DNA from: a virus
IMG/VR virus record: IMGVR_UViG_3300030380_002335
Location: 1 to 36,885 of that record
Length of the DNA: 36,885 nt
Direction: 5' to 3' (one strand)
Of this stretch, positions 1,749 to 36,885 are shown one piece after another. Below the pieces are notes generated by a model. The model was not told the DNA's origin. It searched no databases and saw only the letters and a program-made list of their open reading frames with translations. Each line of letters starts with the position of its first letter. Position 1 is the first letter of the stretch. The translations under genes were made by a program, and so were the position numbers.

Positions 1749-1993
1749 TACTTTTTCTTTTTACCACCTCCATAGTTTCCAGGTCCACCAGCTTTAGTAC
1801 ATCTTACACCCCATCCAGAAGCGTAAGCGCTAGGCCAAACTTTAAATTTTCTTTTTGCCGCAGCTTTACAAGCTGAACTTATTTTACCATAAAGTGGTGA
1901 TCCTTCCATTTCAACAGGATTTAGTTTGCCAGCCGTTTCAGTTTTATTTGGCGGCGATGGCGCTGGTCTTTCTTTAAATTTTTTATTTGGCAT
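1748..1993 (-). CDS. Small basic protein with VWPSAYASG motif (DUF5872-like)
   Basis: I place the start at the ATG at 1993-1991, giving 81 residues beginning MPNKKFKERPAPSPPNK. An in-frame ATG at 2020 would add nine residues overlapping the end of the giant gene more deeply and is less likely. After a Pro-rich N-terminus comes CKAAAKRKFKVWPSAYASG followed by WGVRC and a Gly/Lys tail. The CKAA...VWPSAYASG...C pattern is typical, from memory, of the small DUF5872-type proteins of phages and large DNA viruses. Its start overlaps the giant gene's stop by 11 bases and it ends in a TAATG junction. The role is unknown. Confidence 0.78.
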   Translation of the reverse strand: MPNKKFKERPAPSPPNKTETAGKLNPVEMEGSPLYGKISSACKAAAKRKFKVWPSAYASGWGVRCTKAGGPGNYGGGKKKK

Positions 1994-4900
1994 CTTTTTT
2001 ATTTTTATTTTGTAACTCAATTATTTTATTTACTCTATCCTTCTCGTATTTTAAGGATTTTATTTCTTTTTTAGTTAAACCAAGATCCAATAAAGTTTCT
2101 ACTTGTTGAGATTTAGTAGTTTCTTTCATCATGTTTTCTACTTTTAACTCAGCTTCCATTTCAGGTGTTATAACAACTTTTTCTTCTACACCATAATAAG
2201 GTAGTCCTACGTCCCAAGTACTCCAACCTAAAGATAAAGCTACTTTTTGCCAAGCAGCAGTTTGATCACTCATTATATTTCTTATAGCATTTATTTTTTG
2301 AACAGCCTCGTCAGCTGGTAAATTTGTCAATGCAGATATAACTTGAGCTACTGCTAAATAAGCAGGGTTATCAATATCTATACCTTGTTCTTTCATTTCT
2401 TTCATGTTCCATGAAAAACTTCTAGCACCACTGTTTAGTTTTCTTAGTTTAGCTTGGATAGGTGGAGATATTGAAAATAAAGCGTCAACAGCTTCTTCGT
2501 ATTCAGGTGTTTTTTTGCCAGCTTGTTCAGCTATTTCCATTAAAGTATTTTTTAATGTAACTACCAAAGCTCCTTGTATACCAAAACCTCTAACTTGAGA
2601 ATCAAACATACCGTTTAAAGTTCTGTTTATTCTTTGTTGTCTTTTTGCTTGATCTTTTTCATCAGCTTCATCACCATCAAATAATAAAAATTGAACACCT
2701 TGTTGAAGCGAGTTAAATATTAAATTTTGTATACCACCATAATAAACTATCTTAGATATATTTTGCTTCCAATCACCTCTACCGTTTATAAGATCTTGTA
2801 TAGCTCTTTTTTGTATTCTCGCGTACTGCATTTGAGTATTACCAAAAGATAATATTAAACGACCAGCTGCAGATCTTTGTTGATCACTTATTTTAGCTGC
2901 ATTACTAGACTGTTGACTTGTTTCAGATGTTTCTCTAAAATCTTCAAAAGCCTGTTGTTCTGCTGTTTTTTGATCAAAACCTTCTTTTAAATAACTATTA
3001 ACTCTGTTTCTATAAAAAGTAGCTCCACCTGTTGCAATAGCAAAACTATCAGCGTATCTAGTAAATACAAAACCTTTGTTTAGCGCTAAAGCAATAAACC
3101 TTTGAATCTTGTTACCGCTTTTATCTGCTGCTAAATCAGCTATTTCTGATTCTGTAATGTTTATTTTTAAACCTTCTCTTCTTGTTGTTAAGTAAGGTGA
3201 ATTTAATAAGAACATAACATCTGACCAGTACTGAGGTTGGTTTGCAAATGCTTTACCTGCTTGATAAGGATTATTATCTTTCCAATTAATAAAGTTAACA
3301 TTAGAAATTAACTGCAATAAAGCTGATCTAGTGTTAAGAAACATTACAACACCAACAGAATTATTTATCCAATCGTACCATTTTCTTGTTATTGAATCTT
3401 GGTTTACAGCTCTGTTGCTTCCTCTTTTCATTGCTTCTAATGAATTTTTTAAAGCAGTAACATAAGAAGTTCCAAAAGCAGCTTCAATTTTATTTAAATT
3501 TTTATCACTAAATATAATATCTACATTTTCTTGCCATTGAGTTAAATATTTTTGTCTATTAACTTTGTTTATGTTAGCTATTATATCTGTGCTTATTGTA
3601 CCAGCAACCCAACCGTCGCTAGTTCCAGGTCCTGGATAAGGATCTCCTTTTTGTATTGTAATTAATTCATCAGAAAAAACTTTTAAATCTGGGTCAGCTT
3701 TTACAAAATCGCTTAGTCTTTTTAAATCTCTTTTAGATAAACCAGGAACTGTCATACCTTGCTTGTCCCATATATAAGCTCTAATTGCATGCTCATAAGT
3801 AAATTTACCTATACCTGTTTCTTTTTTGAGGCTTTTAGGTATATTAGGGAAAGCGGCTTTTAATGCATTAAAATCATTTGAAGCAGATATTTTAGATGAT
3901 TCAATCTCTATTTCAGCTCTATTATAAGGATCTAATAAATTGTCTTTAAAAAAAGCCATTTGCGCATCACCAACTTTTCCTTTGCCTAGCATTTGATATA
4001 ACAACCCTGTAAAGTCTTCTGCAGACGGTGGTATATAAAAATTATACCTACCTTTGCTAGCACCTATTGTTTTTGCTTTAGCAGAAGAGTACTCTTTATA
4101 AGACTCTATACCTGTTTTCTTTTCTATAATATCATTTATTATTACATCAAATAATTTTTGCTTGCTTCTTAAAGCTATATGAGATCTTCCTTTCACATCT
4201 AATACGTCGTAAACAGCTTGAACAGCTTGAACGTTTAATATAGCATCATCGGCAAAATAAAAATCATTATATCCTTCAGCGGCTTTGCTTACAATCCAAT
4301 TAGCTTTTGCTTGCGGTGATCCATTGGCTAAACCTACTATGTTGTCAAATTTAAGAGTTATACCTTCTGATTTTAACCATTCAAATATAGCGGTACCTGC
4401 TTCAGGAGCTCTAGCAGTTAATATATAAACATTGTCATTTCCAAATTTGTTTACTGCTTTTTTAAGTTTATCAAACAGTGGTCCTCTTCTTCCTTGTACA
4501 ACTTTATTAAATTCACTAAAATCAAACTTAGCACCTATTTCTTCTAAGTTAGAGTGCTCTAAAGCAAACTCAGTAGCATTTATTTTTCTTATATCTCCAT
4601 TAGGCATTTCTACAATAACACTGCTATTTGTTATAGCTACAGTATCGTCAAAATCAAGAACAGATATGCCTTTTACTGGTGCATTAGGATCTCTTGCAAC
4701 ATTTACAGCTTTTTGATAATCTTCTAAAACTTTTATTTTATCAGCAACAGTTTGGCTACGCATTACTTTTTTACCAAAAGTATTATCTATATTTGCTGCG
4801 GCTTTTATTTTTAAAGGCAGTACTTTAGTTTTAAATGCTTTAAATTCTGCTTTAGCTTGTTGCAGTGTTATTTCACCTGTTAGTACTTGTGTAATAAGTT

Positions 4901-7900
4901 CATTAGCTTTTTGCCCAGCAATATCAATACCAACTTTAGACTTTATATTTAATTTACCTACAAAAAACTCACCTACTGTCATTTTAGGTTTAATAAGCTT
5001 ATAAGCAAAAGGATTAGCTGTGTTATTAGTGCTGTATCTTATCCAAGAAGCTAGACCATCTGGTAAAAAATCTAATTTACCTTGCTCTATTAAAGGTATA
5101 ACAAGATCATAAAAAGACTTAGGCATAGACTCATTTAAGCCAAGTGCTTTTAAAGCTTGGTCTGGACCAAACCTTAGCGCTATTTGAGAATAAGAAGCTC
5201 TTACAATTTTCATCTCAGATTTAACTTGACCTTTTATAGCAGCATCTAATAATTGCTTAGCAATTTGATTAGCAGGCATCATGTGCTCTTCTGCAATTTT
5301 AGTGACATCTATTTTACCAGTTATAGGATCTATAGCATAACCAATAACAGGTGCTAAATATCTTATAGGGTGGTTTTGATCAGCAGCGCTATCAGCTATA
5401 AATCTAGCAAAATCTGGAGCCGCGTCTTCATTATTTTTTATATAATCTTGTATTGCTAAAAATAGTTTTTCGATTTCATCAAATTTCTTTTTTATTAAAC
5501 CAGGATCATCTATAAATCTTTCTATAGCTCTAGGATTTAATATACCGCCTTTAGTACTGTATTTTACCCTACCTATAGCACCTTTTTTTATTTCGGTAGA
5601 CATAGCGGCTTGAAATTTTGCCTTTGTATTAAAAGTTAAACTAAATCCACCAGTCATTCCTCTTTGAATATACTCGCCTAGATCAGAGTTTAATTTAATA
5701 AAATCATCTATAGTATTAACAAACTTTATACCTTCTGCAGTAGTTAAATCAAATTCTTTTTTAGGAACTCCTTTAGAGTTTAAAATATCGGTTGCACGCT
5801 TACCAAGCAAAGGTAGTTCCACTGGATATTTACCTTTTATCCAATCTCTTGTAACTTCTTGTTCTTGTTTTCTTTTAGCTTGCGCTTTTTGTCTAGCGCC
5901 TTCTGCCTCTGTTTTGGCGCCTTCTGCTACTTGTTGGTCAATAGCTAGTTCAATACCTTTTAAAACTTGAAGTCTAGCTAGTAATTCCATTATGTTTTTT
6001 GCAGCTTGTGCTGGGCCTGATCTAGCGTCTTTTATATTACCAGCAGGATCCAGACCAAATACAGAATAAAAATAAGGCAAATTCAATTTACTTGGATCTA
6101 GTCTGTATTGTATTTGATTATTTACTTTTAAAGGTTTACCATCTGCTTTTTTTAATTGTATGTAAAAAGCATCTAACAGTTTTTGACCAAGCCTTCTACC
6201 TTCACCACCCACCTCAATAGGTTTACCATTTTTGTTTTTTATGGTAATTATATCAGCATTACCTTTTATTTGTTTTAACATAGTTAACAAAGATGGACCG
6301 TTGTTTTTTATAAACATTTGTATAGGTGTAACGTCGCCTTTACGTAAATTATCGTTTGGCTCTAATATACGTGACACTGGTATACCTAATTGATCTGCTA
6401 TTTGCTGTGCTGCAACTTCTGCAAAAGGTTTTAAATCTTTTAAAGTTATTTTATCTAAATCTATATTACCTAACTCTATTTCAGATTTAACTATGTCAAC
6501 TATAGATTTAATATCAGGGTTTTTCATAACCTTAAAAGGATCAACATCTATTGTCGTTGTTGCCGGCGAGTCTGATGTTTCAATTTCTGTAATGCCTTCT
6601 GATACTGTATCTAGTTCACTTGTATTAAAAACTACATCACCAAGATCTTTTGCTCTTTCAAATATTATATCAGCTCTATTACCTAGCCTACCTAAGTAAG
6701 TTGTTACTTCAAACTTAGGATTATAACCTTCTCCCTCTTCAAATAATGGTGTTGTTTTACCAGACCAAGACGCAATATCACCACCTATTATAAGCTCAAT
6801 AATAGCTTGTTTTATTCCATTTTCATCTATTCCTTTTACGCCTCTTCTTTCATAACCTATTTTACCTTTTATAAAACCAAAATTAGCTTCAACAATTGCT
6901 TCAGCAGCGGCATATTGTTCATCTCTTTGTTCTTGGTTTAAAGGTTTTGTTCTAACTATAGTAACTAAATCTTTGTTAGTTAAAATTCCTTCTTTAAAAC
7001 TATCAAACAGTTTAACACCTCTAGGCGTTAGTTTAGATCTTTTGCCACTTGGAGCTGTAATAACAACTTCTTCGTTTGTAAATCCTTCTCCCTGCCAAAC
7101 ATCACTGTCAACTATTTTGTTTAAAGCATCAACTGATAATTCTTTATTATTCCAAGCGTCAGCTAAAGTTTGAAAAAACTGTAGAGCTCCATTTGGACCA
7201 GAAAAATTCATGTTAAATGTAGAATCGGTGTTAGCTTTTACAGAATTATTAACACCATAACCTAACAGATTCCAAAAATTAAAATTATTAGCTTTTTTAA
7301 TATTTATTCTTTTAGCTGATAGTTCTTCTAAAAATGCTATTATAACCTCATCTGCTTTAGTTGTATCAGCTTTTGTAGTTATTCTTACGTAAGCATTAGG
7401 GTTGTTGTCTGCTAAATAGTTTAGTATTGATTCAGCAACAGGTATAAACGCATTAGAGTTAGTTCCTAGCGCTTCAGAGAATATAACATGATTAAGTTCA
7501 TGAAAAGTAGTTTCACTAGCCTGATTAGCAATAGAGTTTTGCTGCGATACAACAACATCGTAAACTAATTTAGTTTCGCCTTTAGCATTGGTTTGAGTAC
7601 TAACAAACGTAGTACCATTCATTGTGCCATCTTCTATACCTTCTATAAATTCATCTAGCTCTGCTTTTGCTTCTTCTGCTGTTAAATTATTTTTAGGATC
7701 ATTAACCCTTAAATCTAACATTTTTTTGTATCTAGCTATAGCTTGTTTGTTTGTTCTACCTAAAGAAAAATTTATATTTAAACCTTTTTGTTTTAAAGAT
7801 TTTAATAAATCTATACCCTTGTCTATGTTGTTTTTAAACTTTTCTTCTATATGAATTTGCTCAGATTCTTCATATATTTGATTATCGTTAGGATTATCTA

Positions 7901-10900
7901 TTCCTTTTCTCTGTAAGTTAGATACAGCTAAAGCATTTATTCTTTTTCTTTCATCTTTAGGAAGTAAATTAAATGTTTTAGTAAAAGCCTGTGTAAATAC
8001 ATCTCTAGCGCCAACTAGTTGATTAAATTCAACTCTTAAAGGTTCTATTAAGCTTTGTTTTGTTTCAAAATCGTATGCAGGGTTATTTCTTATTTCACTA
8101 GCTTTGTTTTGTAAATCAGCTATTCTGCTCATGGCTTTTGCGTATATAACAAAACCATCTACATCCATTTCTTTTATTTTATTGTTCAACTCTAATAAAA
8201 TATTCTCATTAGATTTAACTAAATCTAATTGAGTTTGTTTCATTTGTTGAACTTGCTCTGCCGTTAAGCTGCTTTTTACAACTTTTTCTTTATATCTATT
8301 GTCGTAAAGAGATTTTTCTATTTGATTATATTCATCTATATTACCTCTAAATTGATCATTTATTTTAGGAGAAGATAAAGAGTTGTATATTCCACCCGCA
8401 AGAGTAGGAGTAACATACACTATATGAGAAAAAAGTAAAGTATTAAAAGCGGCTTCATTAAAACCAGCTAATAAAGGTTTGCCATCTAATCCGTTTTGTA
8501 CAGTTAATGTTATTCCTAATTCACCTGTAGCATCTAAGCCAATTAATCTAGCGTATTCTGGTAAACCTTCTAGTCTTCTAGCACTCCAAGCTTCTATTCC
8601 TTTTTCTAGCTGTTCACCTCCACGCGTATTTTTCCATCTGGTTTTTAAATTTTTAAATAATTTAAATTCTGGTATAGTACCGGCTACTTCAGCTAAACTA
8701 TAACCAGTCATTGTAAGGTTCATTGTTTGAAAATCGTATGGTCTACCACCGTTTAGCATTTCGTTATATCTTTCACCTGCATACATACCACCTGTTGTAG
8801 CAGAGGCAGCGGTTATACCAGCATAAGGATTACCTGTTACATAAGTAGTACCTATCATGGTGGCATAAAAAGGAACTAATTCAAGTCCATAATTAAGAAT
8901 ATATTCCGAAAAGTTTCTAATACTAGAAAAAGCATTTGAGAACTCAGGCGCTTTTACATATCGCTCTTTACGTTTTTTTCTATACTCTATAACATCGCTT
9001 TGAACTTCAAGAAGTCTTTGTTGTTGCATTTTTAAACTCGCAGACTTGTCTGGAGTTGAACCTAATTCTATAAAAGCTAGTAATTGTTGAAGCCCACCTA
9101 AAGCGTAGCTAATACTGTTTATAGTCAAGTCTCCTGGTTTTCCTAATCCGCCAAAGTATTTTTCCATTTGGCTGTAATTTCTTTTTAACCATTCGATCTC
9201 ATATGCATCATCTTTATACTCTTGTCCTTTTTTAATATAATTGCTGTAATCCATTTGAACATCTCTTACAGCATATTTTAAATCTTTTTTAAGCGAATTA
9301 ACTCCTTCTATTCTCTTATTCATGTTTGTTAAAAGAGAATTATACTGCTTAGACAGGTCTGTTACATCAAAACCATTAGCTTGAGCTTCTTTTATTTCCT
9401 CAGCAAGAGAAATTAATTTTTGTTGATCTGAGTTTATAGCGGTAGTATACCTTCTTATATTGTTAGCTGTTGCTCCGTTTTTTATAGAATCAAATCTAAA
9501 TTCAAAATCAAACCTTTCTTCTAACTCTTTCTTGTTGTACACTTCTCCTGTTTTAGGATCTGTATAGCTTTTAGGTAATTCACCGCTGTATAGTATTTCG
9601 TTTTCTCTAGTTCTTTTTAAAACAAACTCAAATATAGATTCTCTTTCTTCATTAGATAAGTCTTCTAAATAATCTTTTTTAAGTTGATCATTAGCGCTAT
9701 ATATTTTTTCACCTTTTATTAATTGTCTAGCTAAACCTTCAATCTCACTTTTTGTTATAGTAGTTTTATTTCCTTGCTCTTTTCTTTCGTTTTCTAAAAT
9801 TTGCCTTGCTCTATCTAATTGAGACTCGTAAGGTTGATAAACCGTATTAGGCATGTTGGCAGGAGTTCTCATGTTCATTTTCATGTCCATACCACTTCCA
9901 GCGGCAAAACCAACATCAGGAGATACCTTGGGTTCAAAGCTTATGTTATTTACAAAGTTGTCTATTTCAACTTCTTTTTGAGGACTTATAGTAGTTAGGT
10001 TTACAAAATTATCATACTTCTCTTCTATAGATCCTTCGTAACTACTTGGTAAAACAATAACCTCAGATTGTTGTTGTCTATGAAGGTCTAAATACTCTGA
10101 TACACTTTTTATTTTTTCAAAACCTTTATCGTTGTTTCTTATTTTATTATCTATTTCTTGATAAGTGTATATATTCCCGTTTATCTTATATCTATTTTTG
10201 TTTTCAACAATTAAAGGTATATCAATTTTTATATTTTCAGAACCCATTACTAGGCCTTCATCTTCTTCTTCAGTTTTTATTTCTTGTATTTCAGGTATTT
10301 CAATATCGTATTCATCTATATTAAAATCAGGATTACCTACTCCAAGTATTTGAGCTATTGTTGCTGTTCTAAGAGGATCATTTTCAGCACTAGACCATTC
10401 CGACGAACCTATAGGTTTAGAATAAAAAACAGGGTCTCCGTCAGCACCGTAGGTTAACTTATACGCGCCAGCTCCTATATTATATGTTTTATTGTTTTCT
10501 GGTAAATTTAGTTGTCTGGCTAAGTTTCTGGTTTCTTCACTACCAAAAGCTTCTAAATCAAATATAACTTCACCATCTCTTGACGTGAACAGTGAAGCCG
10601 AAGAAGTATTTACCGGCTGTGATTCCGTATCTTTTTTGTCTGACTCCACAACAGGAATCGCATTCGCAGAGTCTTTTTCTTTTTTTGTTGCTTCGTTTGC
10701 TTTCTTAGCTGATTCTTTAGTTTCGTCGCTAAATGATTCAGGGTTTAATTCACCACTTCCATCTGTTTTAAATTTAGATGGTTTTTCTTTTTCTTTCTCT
10801 AAAGATTCATTGGCTTTTTTCCACTCTAAAACCTTGGCTTTAATCTCATCTTTAGTTAAACCCTGTCCTTGAAGTGAAGCAACATATGCTTGAAGTTCGT

Positions 10901-10904
10901 TCAT
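1983..10904 (-). CDS. Giant polyvalent virion/ejected protein (zincin, HAD, LPD38-like)
   Basis: At 2973 residues this is by far the largest protein of the window. It begins MNELQAYVASLQGQGLTKDE, then has an acidic low-complexity region. About residues 665-715 are hydrophobic and Gly/Thr-rich (a possible membrane segment). FHELNH at about 1134-1139 gives a zincin HExxH motif (H1135, E1136, H1139), with E1186 or E1193-1194 as possible third ligands. About 1325-1415 has weak sigma-region-2-like features. A HAD phosphatase-like domain shows LDFDDT (D2084, D2086), LTAR (T2163) and FADD (D2219, D2220). The end, about 2510-2915 (NTRSALLQ, DSFAIATGGATFYRNRV), resembles LPD38 of phage polyvalent proteins. 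It follows two probable internal proteins, the position of T7 gp16. I infer an injected multi-effector or ejection protein; activity of each domain is unproven. Confidence 0.85.
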   Translation of the reverse strand: MNELQAYVASLQGQGLTKDEIKAKVLEWKKANESLEKEKEKPSKFKTDGSGELNPESFSDETKESAKKANEATKKEKDSANAIPVVESDKKDTESQPVNTSSASLFTSRDGEVIFDLEAFGSEETRNLARQLNLPENNKTYNIGAGAYKLTYGADGDPVFYSKPIGSSEWSSAENDPLRTATIAQILGVGNPDFNIDEYDIEIPEIQEIKTEEEDEGLVMGSENIKIDIPLIVENKNRYKINGNIYTYQEIDNKIRNNDKGFEKIKSVSEYLDLHRQQQSEVIVLPSSYEGSIEEKYDNFVNLTTISPQKEVEIDNFVNNISFEPKVSPDVGFAAGSGMDMKMNMRTPANMPNTVYQPYESQLDRARQILENERKEQGNKTTITKSEIEGLARQLIKGEKIYSANDQLKKDYLEDLSNEERESIFEFVLKRTRENEILYSGELPKSYTDPKTGEVYNKKELEERFDFEFRFDSIKNGATANNIRRYTTAINSDQQKLISLAEEIKEAQANGFDVTDLSKQYNSLLTNMNKRIEGVNSLKKDLKYAVRDVQMDYSNYIKKGQEYKDDAYEIEWLKRNYSQMEKYFGGLGKPGDLTINSISYALGGLQQLLAFIELGSTPDKSASLKMQQQRLLEVQSDVIEYRKKRKERYVKAPEFSNAFSSIRNFSEYILNYGLELVPFYATMIGTTYVTGNPYAGITAASATTGGMYAGERYNEMLNGGRPYDFQTMNLTMTGYSLAEVAGTIPEFKLFKNLKTRWKNTRGGEQLEKGIEAWSARRLEGLPEYARLIGLDATGELGITLTVQNGLDGKPLLAGFNEAAFNTLLFSHIVYVTPTLAGGIYNSLSSPKINDQFRGNIDEYNQIEKSLYDNRYKEKVVKSSLTAEQVQQMKQTQLDLVKSNENILLELNNKIKEMDVDGFVIYAKAMSRIADLQNKASEIRNNPAYDFETKQSLIEPLRVEFNQLVGARDVFTQAFTKTFNLLPKDERKRINALAVSNLQRKGIDNPNDNQIYEESEQIHIEEKFKNNIDKGIDLLKSLKQKGLNINFSLGRTNKQAIARYKKMLDLRVNDPKNNLTAEEAKAELDEFIEGIEDGTMNGTTFVSTQTNAKGETKLVYDVVVSQQNSIANQASETTFHELNHVIFSEALGTNSNAFIPVAESILNYLADNNPNAYVRITTKADTTKADEVIIAFLEELSAKRINIKKANNFNFWNLLGYGVNNSVKANTDSTFNMNFSGPNGALQFFQTLADAWNNKELSVDALNKIVDSDVWQGEGFTNEEVVITAPSGKRSKLTPRGVKLFDSFKEGILTNKDLVTIVRTKPLNQEQRDEQYAAAEAIVEANFGFIKGKIGYERRGVKGIDENGIKQAIIELIIGGDIASWSGKTTPLFEEGEGYNPKFEVTTYLGRLGNRADIIFERAKDLGDVVFNTSELDTVSEGITEIETSDSPATTTIDVDPFKVMKNPDIKSIVDIVKSEIELGNIDLDKITLKDLKPFAEVAAQQIADQLGIPVSRILEPNDNLRKGDVTPIQMFIKNNGPSLLTMLKQIKGNADIITIKNKNGKPIEVGGEGRRLGQKLLDAFYIQLKKADGKPLKVNNQIQYRLDPSKLNLPYFYSVFGLDPAGNIKDARSGPAQAAKNIMELLARLQVLKGIELAIDQQVAEGAKTEAEGARQKAQAKRKQEQEVTRDWIKGKYPVELPLLGKRATDILNSKGVPKKEFDLTTAEGIKFVNTIDDFIKLNSDLGEYIQRGMTGGFSLTFNTKAKFQAAMSTEIKKGAIGRVKYSTKGGILNPRAIERFIDDPGLIKKKFDEIEKLFLAIQDYIKNNEDAAPDFARFIADSAADQNHPIRYLAPVIGYAIDPITGKIDVTKIAEEHMMPANQIAKQLLDAAIKGQVKSEMKIVRASYSQIALRFGPDQALKALGLNESMPKSFYDLVIPLIEQGKLDFLPDGLASWIRYSTNNTANPFAYKLIKPKMTVGEFFVGKLNIKSKVGIDIAGQKANELITQVLTGEITLQQAKAEFKAFKTKVLPLKIKAAANIDNTFGKKVMRSQTVADKIKVLEDYQKAVNVARDPNAPVKGISVLDFDDTVAITNSSVIVEMPNGDIRKINATEFALEHSNLEEIGAKFDFSEFNKVVQGRRGPLFDKLKKAVNKFGNDNVYILTARAPEAGTAIFEWLKSEGITLKFDNIVGLANGSPQAKANWIVSKAAEGYNDFYFADDAILNVQAVQAVYDVLDVKGRSHIALRSKQKLFDVIINDIIEKKTGIESYKEYSSAKAKTIGASKGRYNFYIPPSAEDFTGLLYQMLGKGKVGDAQMAFFKDNLLDPYNRAEIEIESSKISASNDFNALKAAFPNIPKSLKKETGIGKFTYEHAIRAYIWDKQGMTVPGLSKRDLKRLSDFVKADPDLKVFSDELITIQKGDPYPGPGTSDGWVAGTISTDIIANINKVNRQKYLTQWQENVDIIFSDKNLNKIEAAFGTSYVTALKNSLEAMKRGSNRAVNQDSITRKWYDWINNSVGVVMFLNTRSALLQLISNVNFINWKDNNPYQAGKAFANQPQYWSDVMFLLNSPYLTTRREGLKINITESEIADLAADKSGNKIQRFIALALNKGFVFTRYADSFAIATGGATFYRNRVNSYLKEGFDQKTAEQQAFEDFRETSETSQQSSNAAKISDQQRSAAGRLILSFGNTQMQYARIQKRAIQDLINGRGDWKQNISKIVYYGGIQNLIFNSLQQGVQFLLFDGDEADEKDQAKRQQRINRTLNGMFDSQVRGFGIQGALVVTLKNTLMEIAEQAGKKTPEYEEAVDALFSISPPIQAKLRKLNSGARSFSWNMKEMKEQGIDIDNPAYLAVAQVISALTNLPADEAVQKINAIRNIMSDQTAAWQKVALSLGWSTWDVGLPYYGVEEKVVITPEMEAELKVENMMKETTKSQQVETLLDLGLTKKEIKSLKYEKDRVNKIIELQNKNKKDAK

Positions 10905-26287: not shown

Positions 26288-26320
26288 AATATAATATAAT
26301 TAAATAATTAATAATACAGT

Positions 26321-28711
26321 TTAATTAACTGTTGGAAAAGCTTGCAATGTGTTTTCATTTTCAAAATTAATAGGCCCTGTTTCGTTTTTTCTTTGGCTTA
26401 TCATTTCACTTTGCTGTGTTGCTTGTATTTTAGTTCTTTTATCTTTTCTATCTTCTATTTTCTGCTCTTTTTCTTGCATTGCTTGAACATCCATTTGCTT
26501 CAGTTGCATATCGTAATTAAATTGAGCCTGAAGCTTTTGTTGTTCTATCTGAGCAGCTATTTGCATTCTTTCAATTTCAAATTGACTTTTAGCTTTTTCA
26601 TATTGAACATTAGCTCCTGAAATAGCTTCTTGTTTTTGAACTTCAGCCATAGCGGTTTTTTCAGCTGTTTCAGCTTGTGCTTGAGCTTGTGCTTGTATAT
26701 TAGCTTGTTGATTAGCTTGATCGCGTTCTTGCTTTTTCTTGCGTTTAATCTTTAACATTTGATTTGCAAGTTTAAGATTTTTTATTTGTCTTAAATCTAT
26801 TGCGTCTTCTAAATCAATACCACTAGTTTTTAAAGCAACCTGTATGTTTTCTTCTAGTTTAGCTTCTTCTTCTTCATCTGGTTCTAGTTCTAAATAAATA
26901 CCAAAATCATGAAGATTTAAATTGTTTATTTCTTGAAGAGTTCTAACATTAAAAGTAGATATAGAATTTTCTAATGATGACTTTGTCAACGGAAATTGCA
27001 AAGCATCGGCTATTTTTAAAGATATATTTTCTGCTAATTTTAATGTTAAATACAAACTAGACTGCTTAATGTGTCTTGTAGCTACATTAGATGCATTTGC
27101 TGCTAACTTCTGTAAACCTACTAAGGTTGTTTTATCTGGTGTACTACCATCTCTAGCTTCATTTAAACCGGTTACATCGCGTATCATCTGCAAGTAATAT
27201 TGGTAAGTTTGAATTAAACTAGCTATTTTAGCATTGCCACCGCTACTTTGTAATTCTTGAATAGGAACTTTACCTTGATTAAACTCACCATCTTGTGTAT
27301 AACTTCTACCAACAATACTACCAGTTTGGAAATACATATTTAAAGCTTCAGCTGGATTATAATTAGTACCGTTACCAAGATCTACTTCAGCAAGTCCGTC
27401 CATATCTAAATAAACACCATCTGGTACCATACGAGATAATACCTGTTGTAGCTTTAAATGAGTAAGCTGTATCATATCTGCAAAACCAATACACTTACTA
27501 ACTAGTGACTCTATTCTTCCTTTGTATATTCTAGGCGCACAAATAGCATAATTCATTTCTACTTTCGTAGTATCAGCATAAGGTCTTGACATGTTTTCTG
27601 CAAGTTCCCACTTTAACATAGTATCAGTTCCTAAAACTTTTGCTCCACTATATAAAACTTCAATAGATCTAGAAACTCTTTCAAAGTTTTCATTTTCAGG
27701 TGGATTAAAATTATCATCTTTTTCAATAGCTTTTAATAAGCCTTGATCTGTTTGTTTTATTTTAAACACTTGATCATGATACGTCTTGTAGTCAAAATAT
27801 AAAACTTGAACTGTATTTTCATCATAATCACCCCATCCAGTTATATAAGATCTATTACCAGGCATTGCCTGTATTCTTTTTAGCTCTGTATCAGTTATAT
27901 GAGGAAACTCTTTTTTAAGCTCTGGTATTGTTATTGCTTTTAATTCACCTACATAATATATGTCTTCAAAATTAGGATCTTCTGTATATGAATAAACCAT
28001 GTAAGCAGGATCAACATAATCTACAGTAACACCATTTGATGTATTAAAATTAGTTTTAGCTGCAGCAATACCACAAACAGCTAAGTCCATGTTTAACCTT
28101 CTTCTTGTAAGATCATATTTGTTTTGAGCAAAAACAGATGATATAGCTTCTTCTTCTGCTATTTCTATAGACTGCTTATAGCTTAACTGCATATGTAACT
28201 CTAGTTGCTCTTTGTCTTCTGGTATTATATCTTTGTTTGGAGATTGATATAAATCTATACCTAGTTTTTGTTTTAAAGAATCTAAATATTCTTTAGCAAC
28301 CATATCTTCTTGCAATTTAGAAGCATATTGAGTTCGTTTTTTAACAGACTCTGGATCTTGAGCATATGCTTTTATATCGTAACTTTTAGAAGATATTCCA
28401 TTTACTACAATATCTACAAATTTAGATAAAATAGGTACAGGCTTCCAGTCTAAATTAAGATAAGACAAATCACCGTTTATAGATAACTCATCTTTATATT
28501 TTTGTATACTTTGCTCTCCTCTAGCATATCTACGTAACTCATGGAAGTTATTCCAATTAGTTAAATATCTATTACCATTAGTTCTACCTTGACTAAACCA
28601 CTCTTGTTCTATTGCTTGAGCAACTTGAGATCCATACTCCATACTAGATTTCTCAGCAGTGCTTACTACTTGGCTTGGAAATGGACTGTTAGTATTAGTA
28701 TATATATTCAT
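26321..28711 (-). CDS. Portal protein
   Basis: At 796 residues it has the size of the large portals of crAss-like and related podoviruses. It forms the dodecameric ring at one capsid vertex through which DNA is packed and ejected. The core (about residues 40-620) is mixed alpha/beta. A conserved-looking helix region IRDVTGLNEARDGSTPDKTT near residues 508-527 resembles the tunnel-loop helix region of such portals. The C-terminus from about 655 is a long Gln/Ala/Glu/Lys coiled coil (QAQAQAQAETAEKTAMAEVQ and onwards), likely the barrel or crown inside the capsid. The gene directly follows the large terminase with no gap and precedes the scaffold. The assignment is from order, size and the barrel-like C-terminus. 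Confidence 0.85.
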   Translation of the reverse strand: MNIYTNTNSPFPSQVVSTAEKSSMEYGSQVAQAIEQEWFSQGRTNGNRYLTNWNNFHELRRYARGEQSIQKYKDELSINGDLSYLNLDWKPVPILSKFVDIVVNGISSKSYDIKAYAQDPESVKKRTQYASKLQEDMVAKEYLDSLKQKLGIDLYQSPNKDIIPEDKEQLELHMQLSYKQSIEIAEEEAISSVFAQNKYDLTRRRLNMDLAVCGIAAAKTNFNTSNGVTVDYVDPAYMVYSYTEDPNFEDIYYVGELKAITIPELKKEFPHITDTELKRIQAMPGNRSYITGWGDYDENTVQVLYFDYKTYHDQVFKIKQTDQGLLKAIEKDDNFNPPENENFERVSRSIEVLYSGAKVLGTDTMLKWELAENMSRPYADTTKVEMNYAICAPRIYKGRIESLVSKCIGFADMIQLTHLKLQQVLSRMVPDGVYLDMDGLAEVDLGNGTNYNPAEALNMYFQTGSIVGRSYTQDGEFNQGKVPIQELQSSGGNAKIASLIQTYQYYLQMIRDVTGLNEARDGSTPDKTTLVGLQKLAANASNVATRHIKQSSLYLTLKLAENISLKIADALQFPLTKSSLENSISTFNVRTLQEINNLNLHDFGIYLELEPDEEEEAKLEENIQVALKTSGIDLEDAIDLRQIKNLKLANQMLKIKRKKKQERDQANQQANIQAQAQAQAETAEKTAMAEVQKQEAISGANVQYEKAKSQFEIERMQIAAQIEQQKLQAQFNYDMQLKQMDVQAMQEKEQKIEDRKDKRTKIQATQQSEMISQRKNETGPINFENENTLQAFPTVN

Positions 28712-34717: not shown

Positions 34718-35025
34718 TATGCGTTTCTATAAGCCTCGTCTTCCCAAGGCAGGGTTTTTGCGCCTTCATTCATTTCAGCTCTTGAGTATTTTTTACCTTT
34801 CCAATAAACATAGTTATCGTCATAATCAAGATCACCTCTTTTCATTTGATCTATATGAACCATTTCGTGGTCTATAACGTCTTGAAGTCTTGACGGGCAA
34901 ACATTTTTATTTATAATGATTGTTCCGTTGTTATTGGCTTTACCCATTACGTCGTCTTCCATATCTACATGATATACTGGAGTATTATCTATTTTATATG
35001 GTGGATTGTTTAATTTAAAAGCCAT
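34717..35025 (-). CDS. Small zincin-type metallopeptidase
   Basis: This 102-residue protein carries HEMVHIDQ with H53, E54 and H57, the zinc-binding and catalytic HExxH motif, in a predicted helix after a beta part (TIIINKNVCPSRLQDVID). E97 in LPWEDEAYRNA is a plausible third, gluzincin-type ligand. At about 100 residues it is a minimal catalytic domain with no signal peptide. The substrate is unknown: cell-wall remodelling, host-protein cleavage or virion maturation would all fit. It is the second HExxH protein in the window (the other is inside the giant). It sits between a 51-residue gene and a TAATG-linked small beta protein, upstream of the holin-like gene. Confidence 0.8.
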   Translation of the reverse strand: MAFKLNNPPYKIDNTPVYHVDMEDDVMGKANNNGTIIINKNVCPSRLQDVIDHEMVHIDQMKRGDLDYDDNYVYWKGKKYSRAEMNEGAKTLPWEDEAYRNA

Positions 35026-35030
35026 TTATT

Positions 35031-35186
35031 TTATTTTTTATATGGAAACATTTTGTTTAAAGCTCCTTTTCTGGCTTCACAACCGCAAGGGATGTTTAGT
35101 CCCCTGCTCATTGTGTCTACCATTTTTTTGATACCAGTAGCTTTAGTAAACTTTTCTATACTGTCTCCTAAACCTCTTGATTCCAT
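35031..35186 (-). CDS. Small CxC-motif protein (51 aa), unknown function
   Basis: A frame runs from ATG 35186-35184 to TAA 35033-35031. It begins MESRGLGDSIEKFTKATGIK, continues KMVDTMSRGLN, then IPCGCEARKGALNKMFPYKK. I recognise this arrangement (GLGDxIEKxTKATGIKxxVD...IPCGCxxRKxxLNxxFPY) as a recurrent tiny protein of many phages, usually near tail or adhesion genes; its role is not known to me. The CxC pair could bind metal or form a disulphide. It fills the only gene gap in this stretch. Confidence 0.78.
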   Translation of the reverse strand: MESRGLGDSIEKFTKATGIKKMVDTMSRGLNIPCGCEARKGALNKMFPYKK

Positions 35187-35188
35187 AA

Positions 35189-35545
35189 TTACGCAGAAAA
35201 TACGCAGCTTGCAAACTTAGTGTAAACCGCTGGTTGAGTAATTACAATACGTCCTTGCTCTCCTGCTTGTGGAGCTGGTACCTGCTCAGTAGTTAAAGGT
35301 GGTACAACTGTTGATACCATTCCTCCTGGATTAGCTACAATAGCCTTGTTAAAAGACTCGATCATTGCGTCTACTCCTCCCACTGGATCAGCTACTACAA
35401 CAGTCCAAGTACTTGTACCGTTAGCTAATGTGATTACTAGTGTAGTGTCTCCTGCTGCTGAAGTTGCTGCTATTCCAGCAATCTCTGCGATTGGAATTAA
35501 TGATTGTGGCTGTGATACAGCCTCTACTTTGATAAATTTTGCCAT
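35189..35545 (-). CDS. Small Ala/Val-rich structural protein, unknown function
   Basis: I place the start at ATG 35545-35543 (MAKFIKVEAVSQPQSLIPIA), giving 118 residues. An in-frame ATG at 35635 would add 30 residues that only translate a hexamer repeat (NTNTNTNTN) and a Lys-rich leader. The protein is beta-rich and very hydrophobic without being a membrane protein: AGIAATSAAGDTTLVITLAN, STWTVVVADPVGGVDAM, then a helix (IESFNKAIVANPGG) and QGRIVITQPAVYTKF. The MAKFIK... start with a later GDTTLVITxAxG...A(M)xxxFxxAI pattern resembles small virion proteins of marine phages that are probably head or tail decorations. The true N-terminus depends on which start is used. Confidence 0.68.
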   Translation of the reverse strand: MAKFIKVEAVSQPQSLIPIAEIAGIAATSAAGDTTLVITLANGTSTWTVVVADPVGGVDAMIESFNKAIVANPGGMVSTVVPPLTTEQVPAPQAGEQGRIVITQPAVYTKFASCVFSA

Positions 35546-35549
35546 TTTG

Positions 35550-35579
35550 TTAGTGTTAGTGTTAGTGTTAGTGTTAGTG
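35550..35579 (-). repeat. (AACACT)5 hexanucleotide repeat in the leader of the next gene
   Basis: Five perfect copies of a 6-bp unit (TTAGTG on the plus strand) end five bases before the ATG at 35545. On the coding strand the leader reads AACACT repeated, then AACAAAATG. In frame with an upstream ATG at 35635 it would encode Asn-Thr repeats. It is the only microsatellite of this size seen in the window. Confidence 0.85.
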
Positions 35580-35652
35580 TTAATTATTGGCTGAGGTTTT
35601 TTTGTCTTCGCTGGAATTTTGTCCTTCGTTTTCATACAGTCCTCTCTCTGTT

Positions 35653-36225
35653 TTATCCTTGATTAAGTATGTCGTCAATAGCGGCGTTTTTCTTTTTAAG
35701 ACTCTTATTGTAAGCGTCAACTTTAGCATTGTATGCTTTGTTTACGCTCATTATAGAGTCACGTGATTTATTGTACGCGTTAACATTCTTTTCCTCAATA
35801 GCGTTAGCTTTGTCAACCTGTTCTTGAGTGTTAAATTGTAAGTCTTTAATTTTATTTCTAAAACCTTCTACTTTACTTTTTCTGTCTTTAATTACGTCAT
35901 CTTGAGTTTGACCTTTTTCGTTTATTAAACTCTTTGGATCTGGTCTTTCTTGATTTAAAGGTGACATTCTAGAAGATTGTGCATGCTTAGACAACCAAGA
36001 AGCATGTTTAGCTACTGGATTATCCATCATTAAATTTTTTCTTTCTTGTTTTACTGACTCTCCCATTCTCTTACCATAATGATGGTTTTGAGCTGGTGAA
36101 TGTCCCATTTCATTTGGGCTGTGTCCCATTTTATTTGGGCTGTGTCCCATTTCATTTGGTGAGTGACCCATTTTAGTTGGTGAGTGACCCATTTGAGGTC
36201 CTCCTTTTTTTTCTCCGTAAGGCAT
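35653..36225 (-). CDS. Protein with MGHSPxx heptapeptide repeats
   Basis: I choose ATG 36225-36223 (MPYGEKKGGPQ), giving 190 residues. The longer frame to 36297 overlaps the upstream gene by 44 bases. Residues 12-46 are five tandem seven-residue units MGHSP followed by TK, NE, NK, NE or AQ, then NHHYGKRMGES. After this Met/His/Pro-rich head come helical charged segments (KDRKSKVEGFRNKIKDLQFN; KANAIEEKNVNAYNKSRDS), likely a coiled coil, ending KKKNAAIDDILNQG. Similar MGHSPAE repeats occur, as I recall, in small proteins of uncultured marine phages. The His-rich repeats could bind metal, but that is inference. A virion-internal or assembly role is possible. Confidence 0.75.
   Translation of the reverse strand: MPYGEKKGGPQMGHSPTKMGHSPNEMGHSPNKMGHSPNEMGHSPAQNHHYGKRMGESVKQERKNLMMDNPVAKHASWLSKHAQSSRMSPLNQERPDPKSLINEKGQTQDDVIKDRKSKVEGFRNKIKDLQFNTQEQVDKANAIEEKNVNAYNKSRDSIMSVNKAYNAKVDAYNKSLKKKNAAIDDILNQG
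36088..36192 (-). repeat. Five tandem 21-bp repeats coding MGHSPxx
   Basis: Five contiguous 21-bp units, with Met codons ending at 36192, 36171, 36150, 36129 and 36108, encode MGHSP plus two variable residues. Some units are near-identical at DNA level and others have diverged synonymously (TGAGTGACCCAT versus GCTGTGTCCCAT on the plus strand). This indicates expansion by slippage or recombination followed by drift. In-frame copy-number change would be tolerated. Confidence 0.9.
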
Positions 36226-36253
36226 AATATTAGTTTTTATTTGTTTTTTAATT

Positions 36254-36634
36254 TTAAAAGCAGTGTTTTGTAACAGGTGAACCGTCAACTTTTTCATTTA
36301 TATATACTAGTTTTCCTTTTCCATGAGGATGCTCGTGAGCTTGTTTTCTACCGCTAGATCCTGCTGGATGTGTAGCTGGTGAACCGTGATGTTTTTTATC
36401 ATATTTCATATCTCCAGCTAGCTTTGAAATATGCTTTTCATCAGCTGTCATATTTTCGTCATTATGACCGTGTTTTGCATCATATAAAACATCTCGCTTT
36501 AAGTAATCTATATGCGCAGCATCATCTCTTTCAGATGCTTTATAATTACCAGCTGTTACTCTAGTATGAGCGTGGTCTTTTGAAAACTTAGAGTTTCCAG
36601 TATATTCTCCGTAATATCCTTTTTTATGTATCAT
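36254..36634 (-). CDS. His-rich small protein, unknown function
   Basis: This 126-residue protein contains 14 His residues (11%), spread over the whole length, with clusters HAHT, KHGH, KKHHGS, and HEHPHGKG. The middle (AAHIDYLKRDVLYDAKHGHN, ADEKHISKLAGDMKYDKK) is probably helical, and the ends are Gly/Lys-rich. No signal peptide, TM or catalytic motif is seen. A metal-binding or metal-buffering role is plausible from composition; the adjacent repeat protein is also His-rich and the two may work together. It starts with ATG 36634-36632 and lies ten bases after the preceding gene. Confidence 0.72.
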   Translation of the reverse strand: MIHKKGYYGEYTGNSKFSKDHAHTRVTAGNYKASERDDAAHIDYLKRDVLYDAKHGHNDENMTADEKHISKLAGDMKYDKKHHGSPATHPAGSSGRKQAHEHPHGKGKLVYINEKVDGSPVTKHCF

Positions 36635-36643
36635 ATTATTATT

Positions 36644-36885
36644 TTAAGTACATTTTCCGTTTGCGTAAGTTCCGCCTGCTTTTAAACATTCTTCTAGTTC
36701 TGAACTTGTATTAGTAATTCTATCTTTAGCATCCTTTATTTTTGCCTCAACATTTTTAATTCTCTTATCTCTTCCAGGAGTTTTCTTTCTATCACTCATT
36801 CTGTCTACTCTTCTTTGTAATCTATCAGCCTCTTTTTCTGGATCATTTCTAGCATCTATAACTTTTGCAGTATTTGATGATATAT
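36644..36885 (-). CDS. Partial coiled-coil protein with Cys-containing C-terminus
   Basis: The last 79 residues of a gene that enters from the high-coordinate edge are visible, ending at TAA 36646-36644. They are almost purely charged and helical (KEADRLQRRVDRMSDRKK; KRIKNVEAKIKDAKDRITNT), likely a coiled coil. A short tail ELEECLKAGGTYANGKCT has two Cys 14 residues apart that could form a hairpin disulphide. The function is unknown; the full gene is outside the window. Confidence 0.65.
   Translation of the reverse strand, partial: ISSNTAKVIDARNDPEKEADRLQRRVDRMSDRKKTPGRDKRIKNVEAKIKDAKDRITNTSSELEECLKAGGTYANGKCT

Follow-up and report, generated by a model that had tools for sequence, protein, structure and literature searches.

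One described system resembling the leader analyzed here is the operator of phage T4 gene 32, in which a pseudoknot of ~28 nt precedes more than 40 nt of RNA that is less structured and carries UUAAA/UAAA repeats up to the ribosome site, as described in PMC535899. That pseudoknot is placed 67 nt upstream of the start in a 2010 review, which also states that the T4-type operator may be the only case (PMC3014915). At the standby site of tisB, a pseudoknot and a single-stranded region are described as recruiting the 30S subunit through S1 (PMC7708055). ACA motifs are reported to enhance initiation, and they also occur in the loops of pseudoknots selected for S1 binding (PMC3879156). Ribosome profiling in F. 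johnsoniae identified positions −3, −6, −12, and −13 as raising translation (PMC6847099), and flavobacterial ribosomes are described as largely ignoring the Shine-Dalgarno (SD) sequence (PMC6847099; PMC9976891).

The leader described here shares features with each of these systems. As in gene 32 of T4 and RB69, whose pseudoknot is comparable in size and in distance from the start, unstructured short repeats lead from the pseudoknot to the ribosome site; however, gp32 is a single-stranded-DNA-binding protein and its operator has UUAAA repeats, whereas the repeats here are AACA and the encoded protein has no known relative (PMC535899; PMC3014915). Like tisB, it has an H-type pseudoknot beside a single-stranded region upstream of the start, the proposed landing place of 30S and S1; the E. 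coli site, as described, lies ~100 nt upstream of a sequestered ribosome-binding site in a toxin mRNA (PMC7708055), whereas here the repeat ladder reaches the ATG directly, with no SD before it. As in yifK and dppA, several loosely spaced ACA motifs lie upstream of the start, although those motifs are reported to act with an SD in enterobacteria and these form a 6-nt ladder behind a pseudoknot (PMC3879156). The Kozak-like signal of F. johnsoniae has the same adenines at −3, −6, −12, and −13 and the same low structure; it is described as a single-site preference of host genes, in contrast to a periodic ladder ~40 nt long behind a pseudoknot (PMC6847099). In the literature searched, and with no wider claim, we found no description of this leader. 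The leader may bear on how Bacteroidota ribosomes find starts without SD pairing. It is small, occurs naturally, and has been retained by a large group of uncultured phages while its protein diverged; a series of natural variants in ladder unit, length, and stem-2 sequence is built in.

The hexamer array and its position

The window (the whole 36,885-nt stretch of viral DNA analyzed) contains an exact (AACACT)5 array on the minus strand, whose end is 6 nt from the ATG of a 118-aa gene; together with the partial unit AACA, the array stops 2 nt short of that ATG. Tandem Repeats Finder reported a period of 6, 5.8 copies, and 100% matches. A search with the 30-mer at up to three mismatches gave three matches, all overlapping the array, and none in 100 dinucleotide-preserving shuffles. 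The five-copy hexamer reported in the earlier note at 35550-35579 is therefore real, being this same array in a shifted register.

Read along the minus strand, the upstream stop codon (last base 35653) is followed by one base, ACAG, AGAGAGGA, CTGT, a 39-nt stretch, CCTC, AGCCAATAATT, the array, AACAAA, and the ATG at 35545 (Table 1). The 45-nt stretches upstream of start codons were compared for 30 ORFs taken as genes, one of them with its start placed two bases off. Only the ORF behind the array had 0 G, 13 C, and 6 ACA in that stretch; the next best had three ACA.

Table 1. Features of the leader and the flanking genes in the window, with the pseudoknot elements as predicted
Feature	Position	Strand	Basis
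(AACACT)5 array	35552..35581 (35548-35582 with partial units)	-	Exact-match search and Tandem Repeats Finder
Gene served by the leader, 118-aa uncharacterized phage protein (MAKFIKV...NPGG)	35189..35545	-	ORF, relatives, AlphaFold2 model
Upstream gene, 214 aa, MGHSP repeats; stop codon borders pseudoknot	35653..36297	-	ORF, relatives
Stem 1, 5' strand ACAG	35648..35651	-	Sequence, pattern match; one base from upstream stop
Stem 2, 5' strand GAGG, in stem-1 loop	35641..35644	-	Loop/tail complementarity, pair counting
Stem 1, 3' strand CTGT	35636..35639	-	Sequence, pattern match
Loop 3, 39 nt, holds far-upstream ATG	35597..35635	-	Sequence and relatives
Stem 2, 3' strand CCTC	35593..35596	-	Sequence, loop/tail complementarity
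Spacer to start codon, A/C-rich, G-free from 35590 downwards	35546..35592	-	Base counts and relatives

Conservation and predicted fold of the leader

Related loci were collected from IMG/VR. A protein search yielded 31 loci, and a profile search added the best 80 of at least 107 matches, on contigs partly overlapping the 31; among the matches listed, these protein-found loci collapsed to 89 distinct contexts. In 85 of the 89, again among the matches listed, a conserved leader was present, consisting of ACAG, a short loop, CTGT, a complementary tail, and then the start. Of the four contexts without it, two are contig ends (L010 and L100); the others precede the second gene of a tandem paralogue pair (L035) and the family's most diverged member (L111). 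A larger set, in which the protein-found loci were joined by loci found with a leader pattern (at least 120 stretches), had the leader in 156 of 161 contexts, L212 being an additional contig end; the pattern biases this set toward AGG/CCT. When the 5' arm was required in the pattern, the family gene came next in 114 of 115 contexts of the fetched loci, and the exception was a contig end. Perfect arrays of at least four AACACT units occurred 77 times in the viral collection; the first stem and the family gene accompanied 64 of them, and the other 13 had neither. We conclude that the array very probably belongs to a conserved pseudoknot leader, which, judged from sequence, is common to many uncultured phages related to flavobacterial phages.

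Conservation of the leader was compared with that of its surroundings in the 682 of 1500 sampled pairs whose proteins were less than 35% identical, with leaders picked by the stem-1 pattern. The pseudoknot region kept a median nucleotide identity of 85% and the spacer 72%, vs. 52% for the coding sequence and 52% for the upstream sequence; the protein median in these pairs was ~31%.

The predicted fold is an H-type pseudoknot of ~26 nt, in which stem 1 is ACAG/CTGT and its loop covaries with a segment further downstream. Loop 3, usually A-rich, measured 5 nt in 123 of the 156 contexts of the larger set and in 53 of the 85 protein-found ones, the window lineage having the longer, 39-nt form. Thirty-six cores were taken from the protein-found loci, and the L111 core was dropped because it has no CTGT. 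All 35 remaining distinct cores had a Watson-Crick stem of 3–5 bp between loop and tail. The mean length of this stem was 3.54 bp vs. 2.88 bp for permuted tails (SD 0.10, largest 3.29), and none of 5000 permutations reached the observed value; a bare 3-bp threshold is weak, as permuted sets reached it in 25.7 of 35 cores on average. Stem 2 varied on both sides, as GAGG/CCTC, TAGG/CCTA, AAGG/CCTT, TAGA/TCTA, and GAGA/TCTC, and the cores also contained GGG/CCC, GAGT/ACTC, and TGGG/CCCA. In nine distinct rows with identical loop lengths, all 36 cells were paired and 7 cells were changed on both sides, values not matched in any of 500 shuffles; both sides had changed in two of the four pairs, and pairing was lost when the partner was slid. 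In this counting, which ignores kinship, two of five measures fell within the shuffles (pairs changed on both sides, 207/500; further pair types, 223/500). Stem 2 fell out of register between the loop-length classes in a MAFFT alignment of mixed cores, and this alignment was excluded from the counts. By sequence comparison, then, an H-type pseudoknot lies upstream of the start, as seen in the 35 cores and the nine-row pair counts.

Stem 1 was invariant in these cores, so its pairing is without covariation support, and it could be a sequence-specific protein site instead of a paired stem. Alone it is weak, with −1.6 kcal/mol at 37° and −4.1 kcal/mol at 15°. The plain minimum free energy (MFE) fold of the window leader contained the GAGG/CCTC stem and lacked stem 1; in it the GCCA after stem 2 paired with TGGC at the start codon, which would thus be hidden. 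Sequestration of the start by the GCC after stem 2 was rejected, since among 175 distinct leaders chosen for combining the stem-1 pattern with the family gene there was no excess (87 leaders vs. a permuted mean of 82.8, largest 89, in 1000 permutations).

Other identities for the fold were also rejected. An RNA fold was preferred over a dimer operator acting at the DNA level on an ACAG-N-CTGT palindrome, because the distance between the arms varied from 6 to 8 nt in the listed cores and the loop covaried with the downstream segment. Against a frameshift or readthrough pseudoknot, the knot usually begins within a few bases of the stop; in the window the upstream stop is 107 nt from the MAKF start, so the reading frames differ. 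No known Rfam family was indicated: 4227 covariance models gave no match up to E 1 in window positions 34800-36885 or in 11 loci, a weak test for a 26-nt pseudoknot.

Behind the pseudoknot, the spacer of the 85 protein-found leaders was 33–52 nt long (mode 42) and contained 60.5% A, 25.8% C, 13.3% T, and 0.4% G, with no G past its first four bases in 73 of the 85. Of the 389 gaps between AACA starts in these leaders, 283 were of 6 nt, as were 510 of 717 in the larger set, where the starts peaked at about −6/−7, −12/−13, −18 to −20, −24 to −26, −30 to −32, and −36 to −38. The repeat unit was replaceable (AACACT, AACATT, AACATA, AACAAA, and 5- or 7-nt forms), with length and G-poverty kept. AACACT was wholly absent from 84 of the 175 leaders. 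Four of the 175, with 0–2 AACA, still had the knot and a G-poor spacer, and the hexamers are therefore dispensable. Adenine was present before the ATG at −3 in all 85 protein-found leaders, at −6 in 64, at −7 in 74, at −12 in 67, and at −13 in 78; the window leader has A at −3, −6, and −12 and T at −13. The MFE was zero from leader base 27 to the ATG in 174 of 175 leaders; together with the 0.4% G, this predicts a single-stranded landing region next to the pseudoknot. The distance from ACAG to ATG was 56–77 nt in 173 of the 175 (median 65 nt), the outliers being one of 83 nt and the window lineage at 106 nt.

L062 and L063 were identical at 297 of their first 300 coding bases, had stem 2 as AAGG/CCTT and GGG/CCC, respectively, and differed in leader and upstream sequence. 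This difference suggests, as the simplest reading of the sequences, a recombination with its junction in the conserved leader. Positions 2249-2995 of L035 encode two tandem family paralogues; the ATG of the second is preceded by no pseudoknot, just by a short AACACTAACA stretch.

Possible functions of the leader

We put at roughly 0.55 the probability that the leader as a whole, ribosome-proximal ladder plus pseudoknot, is an SD-independent enhancer of translation initiation; this estimate draws on sequence comparison and on analogy with the systems described above. The leader would probably be used to load ribosomes that are blind to the usual start signal. For the mechanism itself we consider the chances to be about even. 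It would be that of a cis-acting SD-independent initiation enhancer or standby site inside a polycistronic mRNA: bS1 on the 30S subunit would bind both pseudoknot and repeated ACA motifs, with the unstructured ladder handing the subunit on to the start codon. Adenines at −3, −6, and −12/−13, supplied by the last units, would match the Kozak-like signal of flavobacterial ribosomes. Whole-unit slippage would be a by-product, shifting the length by six and leaving the phase of the ladder unchanged. The S1 and ACA precedents are enterobacterial, which counts against this reading. If the enhancer reading is true, the leader would be a transferable high-expression leader for flavobacteria.

More tentatively, the leader may be a phage counterpart of an internal ribosome entry element, in which the pseudoknot and the AACA ladder would capture the 30S subunit independently of the upstream gene; the 6-nt period of the ladder would then repeat the A−6/A−12 register of SD-blind Bacteroidota ribosomes. 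Action of a phage bS21 on SD-like loops was rejected: 11 records searched gave no bS21 match, and some stem-2 variants, TTAGA for example, do not resemble an SD.

In 34 chosen records (15.6–69.4 kb), all with the phrog_6681 terminase family, the leader pattern occurred once per record in 27, and the other seven had the gene and not that exact pattern. The leader serves one gene family, which is also compatible with a gene-specific regulator. The candidate of this kind is an autogenous operator like that of T4 gene 32, where the encoded protein (or another phage protein) would nucleate on the pseudoknot, spread over the ladder and the start, and, when in excess, repress its own production. In favor of it are the single gene family found behind the leader and the layout, which is of the gene 32 type: a ~26-nt pseudoknot followed by unstructured, repeat-bearing RNA to the ribosome site, at a median of 65 nt from ACAG to ATG. 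However, a pseudoknot ~85% identical where the protein is ~31% identical suggests a better conserved partner than the encoded protein itself, e.g., the ribosome. The structural searches with the 118-aa protein, which gave no significant PDB match (see below), indicated no nucleic-acid-binding fold, a result that excludes nothing. Because of this difference in conservation, and because the start context suits the ribosome, we prefer the enhancer and regard the operator, its main rival, as unlikely. If the leader were a repressor site instead, it would be the second viral example of the gene 32 design.

An mRNA processing or stability element is less probable still. Here the pseudoknot after the stop would guard the upstream 3' end or the processed downstream 5' end, and the spacer would simply be an unstructured leader. 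The 5' border of the leader is sharp and close to the upstream stop, with a gap of exactly one base between stop and ACAG in 54 of 146 contexts that have an upstream ORF of at least 50 codons, and no conserved block was seen further upstream of the pseudoknot across the compared contexts. The Bacteroidota promoter consensus is a −33/−7 element pair; this pattern was found in 0 of 165 upstream stretches vs. a shuffled mean of 0.42. These results fit a processing element, which nevertheless leaves the 6-nt AACA periodicity, the adenines at −3, −6, −12, and −13, and the tight distance to the ATG unexplained.

The earlier note proposed that slippage of the array could tune translation by six-base changes in leader length. 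Such changes were found: among 126 pairs with proteins at least 90% identical and differing leaders, 68 were of equal length, 37 differed by 1 nt, 14 by 6 nt (e.g., L177/L223), and 7 by 2–5 nt. The whole-unit copy number therefore changes among close relatives. As a contingency locus, in which hexamer copy number would tune translation among virions, the array is nevertheless improbable. Its exactness and the 6-nt differences speak for slippage, but five copies was the mode in the 64 leader arrays of at least four perfect units (45 with five, 16 with four, and 3 with six; shorter arrays fell outside that search), spacer lengths were clustered, and AACACT was missing from the 84 leaders noted above. 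A second contig overlapping the window, 99.96% identical over 8290 aligned bases with 3 mismatches and no gaps, also had five copies. In these comparisons six-base steps appear over evolutionary time, yet leader length is held. An expression role for the hexamer array is plausible. The six-base steps proposed in the earlier note are thus real, whereas the array is no stand-alone device; it is rather the unstructured half of the conserved pseudoknot leader.

Homologues favor the start at 35545 and thereby bear out the placement of the array in an untranslated leader. On sequence grounds 35545 is most likely the start, because among the 85 protein-found leaders only those of this virus and L078 have an in-frame upstream ATG (and again only these two among the 156 of the larger set), and because in L003 and L004 a TAA overlaps the first stem at its end and the frame before MAKF contains no ATG. 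Translation from the ATG at 35635, in the long loop 3 of the window lineage, which would give a 148-aa protein with the array as an (Asn-Thr)n linker, is very improbable: that frame is open and an SD-like GAGAGG precedes the ATG, but SD sequences are described as largely ignored by flavobacterial ribosomes (PMC6847099; PMC9976891), the upstream ATG is as rare as stated, and (AACACT)n is stop-free in two of three frames by composition alone.

The served gene, its neighbors, and the carriers

The AlphaFold2 model of the 118-aa protein had a pLDDT of 91.4. Comparison of the model with PDB structures gave no significant match (best E 0.24), and the VIA fold search gave Z of at most 5.0, with many PH-like rows. 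In a profile search of PDB sequences the best match was 6f8e_A, a PH domain, with E 0.01 (E 0.33 with a smaller profile). These results are a weak hint of a PH-like fold, from which we draw no function. BFVD gave three matches with E ≤ 0.001, all nameless; no consistent PHROGs family was found among 111 members, and three family members had no Pfam match. The gene lies upstream of holin-, tail-fiber-, terminase-, and portal-like genes, and a virion role for its product is a guess.

The upstream gene contains a 21/42-bp tandem repeat (window 36101-36194) that encodes its MGHSP-type heptapeptide repeats, and 122 of 143 upstream ORFs of related loci fell in one BLAST cluster with the low-complexity filter off. 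Elsewhere in the window, a 2973-aa ORF (1983-10904) had no significant Pfam match. On the minus strand at 26316-26332, where the portal gene ends and ahead of the next gene, there is another ACAG...CTGT palindrome (ACAGTTAATTAAACTGT), followed by an AT-rich stretch.

Of the 87 annotated relatives of the window terminase, 86 carry names of Flavobacterium, Cellulophaga, Tenacibaculum, or Maribacter phages. A window protein of 1832 aa matched the crAss muzzle family. From the terminase relatives only, the host would be flavobacterial. Searches for the same gene or leader in isolated phages recovered neither: tblastn with five family proteins returned no match in the phage collection, and with the leader DNA the only matches were short and weak (E 3 to 9). 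A profile search, run without a positive control, did not find the family gene in five annotated records whose terminase is related.

Two of these five, the isolated flavobacterial phages phi38:1 (71427-71448, L238) and Gundel_1 (44611-44632, L239), both without the family gene, each contained a loose stem-1 pattern once. Three small contigs from metagenome-assembled genomes, labeled Aliivibrio (L232), Sphingobacteriales (L233), and Bacteroidetes (L234), bore the leader and the gene, with six AACACT copies in L234; they are probably phage contigs binned with bacteria.
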